A stretch of DNA of 43,339 nucleotides from Gammaproteobacteria bacterium (GTDB lineage Bacteria; Pseudomonadota; Gammaproteobacteria; Arenicellales; Poriferihabitantaceae): positions 1-43,339 of the forward strand of contig JAPPPS010000009.1 of NCBI GenBank assembly GCA_028817405.1, given 5' to 3'. Below, in pieces: positions 134-208 of the stretch; position 1 is the first letter of the stretch, and each line of letters opens with the position of its first letter. The translations under genes and the position numbers were made by a program. Below the pieces are notes generated by a model that was not told where the DNA came from, did not search any database, and worked only from the letters and a program-made list of their open reading frames with translations.

Positions 134-208
134 GTCATTCCGTGCGGTAGAGAAACAAGGAAGCGTAGCGACTATGTTTCTCACCGATACGGAATCCAGA
201 GTCTTTAA
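134..208 (+). repeat. Type-A long hairpin repeat with TCCAGAGTCTTTAA tag (copy A1)
   Basis: gtcattccgtgcggtagagaaacaaggaagcgtagcgactatgtttctcaccgatacggaatccagagtctttaa; arms ATTCCGT/ACGGAAT and GGTAGAGAAACA/TGTTTCTCACC; identical to 278-352. Confidence 0.9.

Follow-up and report, generated by a model that had tools for sequence, protein, structure and literature searches.

A covarying, long-armed variant of CGTC-type REPs forming the long half of an intergenic heterodimer

The hairpin at positions 134–208 of the window, by which we mean the whole analyzed stretch of 43,339 nucleotides, is a covarying and unusually long-armed variant of the CGTC-type REPs and makes up the longer of the two unlike halves of a CGTC-tagged REP heterodimer. 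It is denoted type A below. Our favored reading, which we hold with reasonable though not high confidence, is that this long half belongs to a non-coding element of ~150 nt, scattered over the intergenic DNA of the genome, whose tagged strand would fold as single-stranded DNA and be read at fixed points by a trans-acting DNA-processing enzyme.

Type A copies and their dimer layout

The window is one entire contig (C133) of genome G000 (2.86 Mb, 160 contigs, 93% complete), and encodes ordinary chromosomal functions: methyladenine glycosylase, HSP90, Rieske oxygenase, transporter, 3-hydroxyacyl-CoA dehydrogenase, beta-keto acid cleavage enzyme, lipoyl ligase, and PBP5. Two neighboring minus-strand ORFs at 13849–15645 (296 and 297 aa, ~900 nt apart, 75–84% alike in stretches) look like a tandem gene duplication. 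At least 61 type A copies were found in G000 (~2.9 Mb). The six copies that the initial annotation had reported in the window were recovered at 134, 278, 929, 5652 (minus strand), 19248, and 43291, and the inner and outer stems it had named are correct.

The first copy (134–208, plus strand; model R1, 90.7 bits) is composed of a GTC foot, arms at 137–195, and a tail with tag, CCAGAGTCTTTAA, at 196–208. An identical copy matched by the covariance model lies at 278–352 (plus strand, tag 340–352), and faces, across ~390 nt, a tag with 2 mismatches and a short ACGCCCGC hairpin at 739–780 on the minus strand. The heterodimer at 929–1068 (plus strand) begins with a type A half of the CAATTCCTGAT form (929–988), followed by its tag (989–1001), a spacer, a minus-strand tag (1030–1042), and a short AACTCCCG hairpin (1043–1066, minus strand). 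Another is located between two convergent genes at 5586–5724, where a short AACTCCCG hairpin, a plus-strand tag (5610–5622), and a spacer are followed by a minus-strand tag (5650–5662) and type A on the minus strand. In the heterodimer at 19248–19394 (plus strand), type A takes the ATTCCGGG form with a tag at 19309–19321, which leads through the spacer to a degenerate tag and a short ACGCCCGC hairpin on the minus strand. The copy at 43291–43339 (plus strand), having a GAGGAATA inner stem and an AGCGCC loop flank, is truncated by the contig end. The remaining features are a dimer of two short ACTCCGG hairpins at 1140–1236 (tags 1162–1174, plus, and 1200–1212, minus), a dimer of short hairpins at 43114–43214 (tags 43145–43157, plus, and 43179–43191, minus), and a single short hairpin with the variant tag CCAGCGTCTTT at 24890–24924 (plus strand). 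Minimal CGGCGC-GNA-GCGCCG hairpins (e.g., GCGGCGCTTCGCGCCGC) also recur beside REPs in G000, at window positions 1066–1082 and in many flanks. Contig ends often fall inside or beside type A copies (C46, C127, and the window end at 43339 in G000; C33 and C125 in the same-genus genome G002), so that the copies counted are a lower bound, and assembly could have lost a high-copy parent element.

The tag TCCAGAGTCTTTA had been regarded as a constant part of type A, which could not be maintained. Allowing at most 2 mismatches, we counted it 13 times in the window, versus 0.15 expected; exact occurrences in G000 number 146, versus 0 for the reversed control, and besides type A, five or more other hairpins precede it. 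Among 214 distinct tags in the retrieved DNA, which comprised stretches around the repeats, the preceding hairpin was type A for only 63, while the others followed short hairpins, including ACTCCGG (68), ACGCCCGC (26), ATTCCCGC (22), AACTCCCG (10), and ATTCCGG (7); furthermore, the sequence after the CCA tail in G002 differs from the G000 tag. The tag is one end of the spacer joining two inverted hairpins, and the dimer reads type A, CCAGAGTCTTT, a spacer interior of ~25–30 nt, AAAGACTCTGG, and a short hairpin. Facing tags 23–35 nt apart gave ~65 dimers, in which the spacer ends are complementary (CCAGAGTCTTT...AAAGACTCTGG). The partner of type A was a short hairpin ~48 times and another type A once, and type A mostly adjoined the AATT end of the spacer (AATT 41, ATAT 5, and AATG 3 of 56). 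A strict tag pattern was rejected as a test for relatives, since G002 copies with different tails, recovered by the covariance model, escaped it.

CGTC-tagged REPs and their head-head dimers, which include dRS3 and RPE-4/RPE-6, were described by Di Nocera et al. (2013, PMC3733652) as elements without a dedicated transposase, whose dimers have unlike halves, complementary-ended spacers, stems of 8–9 bp, and loops of 4–5 nt. Type A resembles them in its unpaired CGTC foot (TGTC or CCTC being the accepted variants), which reads GCCGTCATTCC in most copies and CGCAATTCC in a subtype, in the AT-complementary start of its first stem (ATTCC/GGAAT), and in its CCA tail, where the CAATTCC subtype ends GGAAGCCA. 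It also forms head-head dimers, often of unlike halves, across conserved spacers of 20–100 bp with often complementary ends, and no dedicated transposase was located nearby in the sampled DNA. The suggestion of a REP/dRS3-like repeat in the initial annotation was hence justified in that type A is a CGTC-REP. In contrast to the published 8–9 bp stems, however, it has more than 20 pairs (24 in several stems) interrupted by bulges at fixed places, and its GNA/GNNA tip comes with tandem GA; we therefore class it as a variant and not as an ordinary member. RIME and other rhizobial intergenic mosaic palindromes (PMC2573895) are, like type A, palindromes located between genes. A literature search using the repeat sequence strings returned nothing relevant.

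Fold, covariation, and apical tip

Type A is a hairpin of 60–65 nt with covarying arms, and single-stranded DNA folds of three copies gave z-scores of −4.2 to −6.6 against dinucleotide shuffles. In an alignment of 30 distinct type A sequences, the outer stem (columns 3–9/56–62) is followed by a second, short stem (11–14/50–53), an unpaired 5′ base (15), an inner stem (16–23/42–49) with a bulged 3′ base (41), and two further pairs (24–25/39–40), above which G.A, A.G, G-C, and C-G lead into the loop. The overall anatomy comprises a GTC foot, an outer stem ATTCCNN.../...NNGGAAT, an inner stem of 8–9 bp, a tip AG[GA]GC-GNA-GC[GA]CT, and the CCA tail. Among the 30 distinct copies, 10 of 24 pairs were changed on both sides with the bulges retained. 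Cells changed on both sides numbered 67, versus 21.6 ± 3.4 in shuffles (0/500 shuffles), and 95.4% of cells were paired, versus 87.6% when shuffled and 36–48% when partners were slid; since the copies are related by descent, the cell counts exceed the number of independent events, and the shuffle counts, uncorrected for ancestry, support the structure but are not usable as probabilities. RNAalifold, given no structure, arrived at almost this fold, with 9 pairs changed on both sides, and the result was unchanged when G002 copies were added.

The excess of double-sided changes bears out the covarying stems noticed in the initial annotation. Its recurrent bulge was also upheld: in most copies, and in other species as well, the unpaired 5′ base and the 3′ bulge stay at constant positions. 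The variation is not that of a few clonal duplications, considering the 30 distinct forms here and the relatives with other stems in G002 and in G038, a genome of another family of the order. As had been argued, the combination of covarying arms, retained bulges, and an unchanging tip implies that a folded strand is under constraint.

Almost without exception, the paired changes are clean G-C/A-T swaps with few intermediates. This is what one-step correction would give if one arm were copied from the other by quasi-palindrome correction or template switching, with the fold itself unselected. Such correction would erase imperfections. The unpaired base of the 5′ arm, the bulge of the 3′ arm, and the tandem GA have nevertheless been kept in most copies, in other species too, and the strand preference for GNA over TNC described below is not predicted by it. 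We accordingly consider templating very unlikely. Arm-mismatched chimeras (L020 and L039) are single copies, while matched forms reach up to 23 matches, a count that includes the same place in overlapping loci.

The loop had been described as fixed in the form GGA(A)GCG-AGCGAC. The tip is indeed conserved, but the loop proper reads either GNA or GNNA, and AGCGCC replaces AGCGAC in a sizeable minority. The apical GGAGCGNAGCGAC adopts a fold of tandem G.A pairs with a GNA triloop; AGGAGCGNAGCGACT forms A-T, G-C, tandem G.A/A.G, G-C, and C-G closing the triloop. In 61 G000 copies, the loops were GTA (35), GCA (18), GATA (5), GACA (2), and GCG (1), which correspond to 53 GNA, 7 GNNA, and 1 other. 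Because some copies have an extra A (GGAAGCG) or AGCGCC for AGCGAC, the tandem GA is not universal. The pairs adjacent to the tip co-vary, being AG/CT and GG/CC here, GTCG/CGAC in locus L092, and GGCG/CGCC in Hydrogenedentota, and in Mesorhizobium the tandem GA and true Watson-Crick pairs, e.g., GGAGC-GAA-GCTCC, stand in for one another.

The first contig scan for the tip held the motif AGCGNAGCGAC fixed, so that the loops from that scan prove nothing. In a loop-blind search, only GTCATTCC...GGAATCCA was fixed, and 51 of 349 Pseudomonadota genomes were matched. Among the matches listed, 93 of 139 distinct genome-hairpin pairs had triloops, and the Pseudomonadota triloops on the tagged strand were GNA in 65 cases and TNC in 1, the closing stems being of 30 distinct kinds. 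Without strand-specific folding, the two loop types should be equally frequent; the deviation has p ~1.8e-18 when every copy is counted and 3e-8 when each distinct stem is counted once, of which the latter is the fairer figure. A second set (Clostridia, Methylobacterium, Hyphomicrobiales, Desulfobacterales, and others) gave GNA 27 and TNC 0, although it is less independent because its genomes were picked for carrying the motif somewhere. Non-GNA triloops amounted to ~30% in the loop-blind samples. A GNA tip on the tagged strand is thus likely to be a general feature of long CGTC hairpins; it is absent from the open-licence literature searched and may already be published.

In DNA, tandem sheared G.A pairs form stably, and RNA, too, has GNA loops and sheared G.A pairs. 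The DNA mini-hairpin d(GCGAAGC) was reported to be extraordinarily thermostable and nuclease-resistant (NAR 1994, as cited in PMC10527192). Hairpins of this type are known from chemistry, in this respect unlike the genomic type A, and have exactly its apical core, GC-GNA-GC. The tip of CGTC-type REPs in many unrelated bacteria is a very stable single-stranded DNA hairpin turn, and no link between d(GCGAAGC) and CGTC-REPs was found in the open-licence literature searched. Two other identities were considered for the hairpin and dropped. Loops such as CCGC-GAA-GCGG lack the GGA of a CsrA-type loop, and type A lacks the RYYYAAC/GTTRRRY ends of an integron attC site.

Isolated stem mismatches were G.A or A.G in 31 cases and T.C in 1, many of the G.A cases sharing descent, which indicates that the tagged strand is the folding strand. 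G.T or T.G was found 9 times and A.C or C.A 18 times (p = 0.12), a contrast that runs opposite to a G.U excess. The lack of such an excess suggests that selection probably acts on single-stranded DNA, and the balance of this sequence evidence favors DNA over RNA. It counts against the hairpin working as RNA, for instance as a 3′-end or intergenic mRNA hairpin that stabilizes or processes transcripts and covaries under RNA selection. The location of the 5652 dimer between convergent genes and of the 19248 dimer between co-directional genes would suit such a role, and RNA roles were proposed for REPs on the basis of location and G-U pairs (PMC3733652). On the other hand, Rfam gave no match to type A above the gathering score, no terminator-like call was obtained at the hairpin, for which reason an intrinsic terminator was also rejected, and sister species lack the element at the one site that was compared. 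An RNA function is therefore judged unlikely, and folding as DNA remains the preferred reading.

Insertion and relatives

That site is the 19248–19394 copy, which is absent between the orthologous genes of the sister species G001 and G003. The interval there contains ~72 nt (G001) and ~57 nt (G003) of unaligned sequence with no hairpin, versus ~208–223 nt in G000. Judging from this single site, at which the sister flanks are too diverged for reading exact ends or a target duplication, the heterodimer unit is an insertion. No type A copies were found in G001 or G003. The covariance model matched 11 copies in G002, with other tails and different stems, and one in G038, which has the same fold with stems ATGCCGGA/TCCGGCAT.

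Several irregular forms were observed. Three-armed copies carry a 24-nt palindrome at an invariant position within the 5′ arm, reading TGTCCCGTG-CTACGA-CACGGGATA or TGCCCCGTG-CAACGA-CACGGGGCA. They occur in G000 (L016:1358, L186:236 on the minus strand, L194:355, and L272:7936) and G002 (L230, L260, and perhaps L262), and the inserted sequence differs between the species; its presence at the same point in both indicates that the 5′ arm tolerates an added branch there. Foot-less copies without GTC, reading AGATATTCCGTG, were found in G000 (L180:573, C106) and G002 (L256 and L258, C33 and C125), and the flank AATGCACACAGAT common to L180 and L256 suggests a shared fusion or site. A clean empty site was sought in Mesorhizobium, whose long CGTC hairpins may be of a RIME-like sort, but the clearest case proved to be a dimer collapsed to one hairpin: the dimer at L086:4658–4825 corresponds to a single chimeric hairpin in L125, as if recombination between the halves had removed the spacer.

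A MITE of a DDE insertion sequence would show terminal inverted repeats matching an IS, together with a target duplication. Outer GTCATTCC...GGAATGAC ends are present in type A; no parent IS was found between facing tags in the sampled DNA, and at the 19248–19394 site the diverged flanks make a target duplication unreadable. An autonomous parent element was dropped, as facing tags in the sampled stretches enclosed an ORF of at least 100 aa in one pair only (L031), a 104-aa frame without recognizable identity.

Candidate enzyme and significance

The initial annotation had proposed a search for a RAYT/Y1-transposase-like protein, and such a protein was not supported. No Y1_Tnp was detected in G000 or its three genus mates (G001–G003), while positive controls were detected, and no RAYT gene flanked by the repeat was found there. 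Among 349 genomes, Y1 showed no association with long CGTC hairpins, being present in 13 of 22 genomes with at least five such hairpins and 165 of 328 others (Fisher p = 0.51), and it was missing from G086, G114, and G388 despite 59, 56, and 34 hairpins, respectively. G086, a 1.5-Mb genome of the same class, appears to be a good place to seek the enzyme.

Type A shares with the GTAG REPs/REPINs mobilized by RAYT (TnpAREP) short non-coding hairpins, a one-sided foot motif, inverted dimers, and bulged long forms, and its hairpin-bulge-hairpin anatomy resembles the long GTAG REPs of TnpAREP subclass 2.2 (PMC6006769). It could thus be imagined that a Y1/RAYT tyrosine transposase made the copies in the same manner and has been lost, or lies in the missing 7% of this 93% complete MAG. 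GTAG REPs, however, pair a GTAG (or GTGG) foot with a Y1 enzyme, whereas type A has a CGTC foot and a genus in which all four members gave no Y1 match. Together with the Y1 distribution above, this makes a RAYT origin distinctly unlikely, and what mobilizes the element is probably something other than a Y1/RAYT transposase of this genus.

The reading that we prefer assumes that the tagged strand would fold while single-stranded, during replication or excision. A trans-acting DNA-processing enzyme would then recognize the foot, unpaired bases, GNA tip, and CCA tail rather than the stem sequence, so that stems could drift in pairs while arm-mismatched chimeras would fail to amplify. The end hairpins of the IS200/IS605 family serve as a working analogy, although neither a transposase gene nor an IS was seen here; the IS608 enzyme recognizes small hairpins formed by a single DNA strand, and a guide tetranucleotide lies 5′ of the foot (PMC6006769). 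Cleavage by the E. coli RAYT was lost once unpaired REP bases were made complementary (PMC3733652), which provides a precedent for conserved imperfections as reading points. As a tentative extension, long CGTC-REPs of several phyla might be substrates of an unrecognized non-Y1 enzyme acting on one GNA-tipped folded DNA strand, with drifting stems and a foot, bulge, tip, and tail that are read.

CGTC-REPs are small repeats in many bacterial phyla. The fixed reading points of type A (foot, bulge, tandem GA, GNA tip, and CCA tail), combined with free stems, offer a concrete substrate for an enzyme search, and any genome can be checked for the GNA/TNC strand bias. The copy-bearing G000 and G002, set against G001 and G003 in which none was found, provide a natural contrast in gene content.
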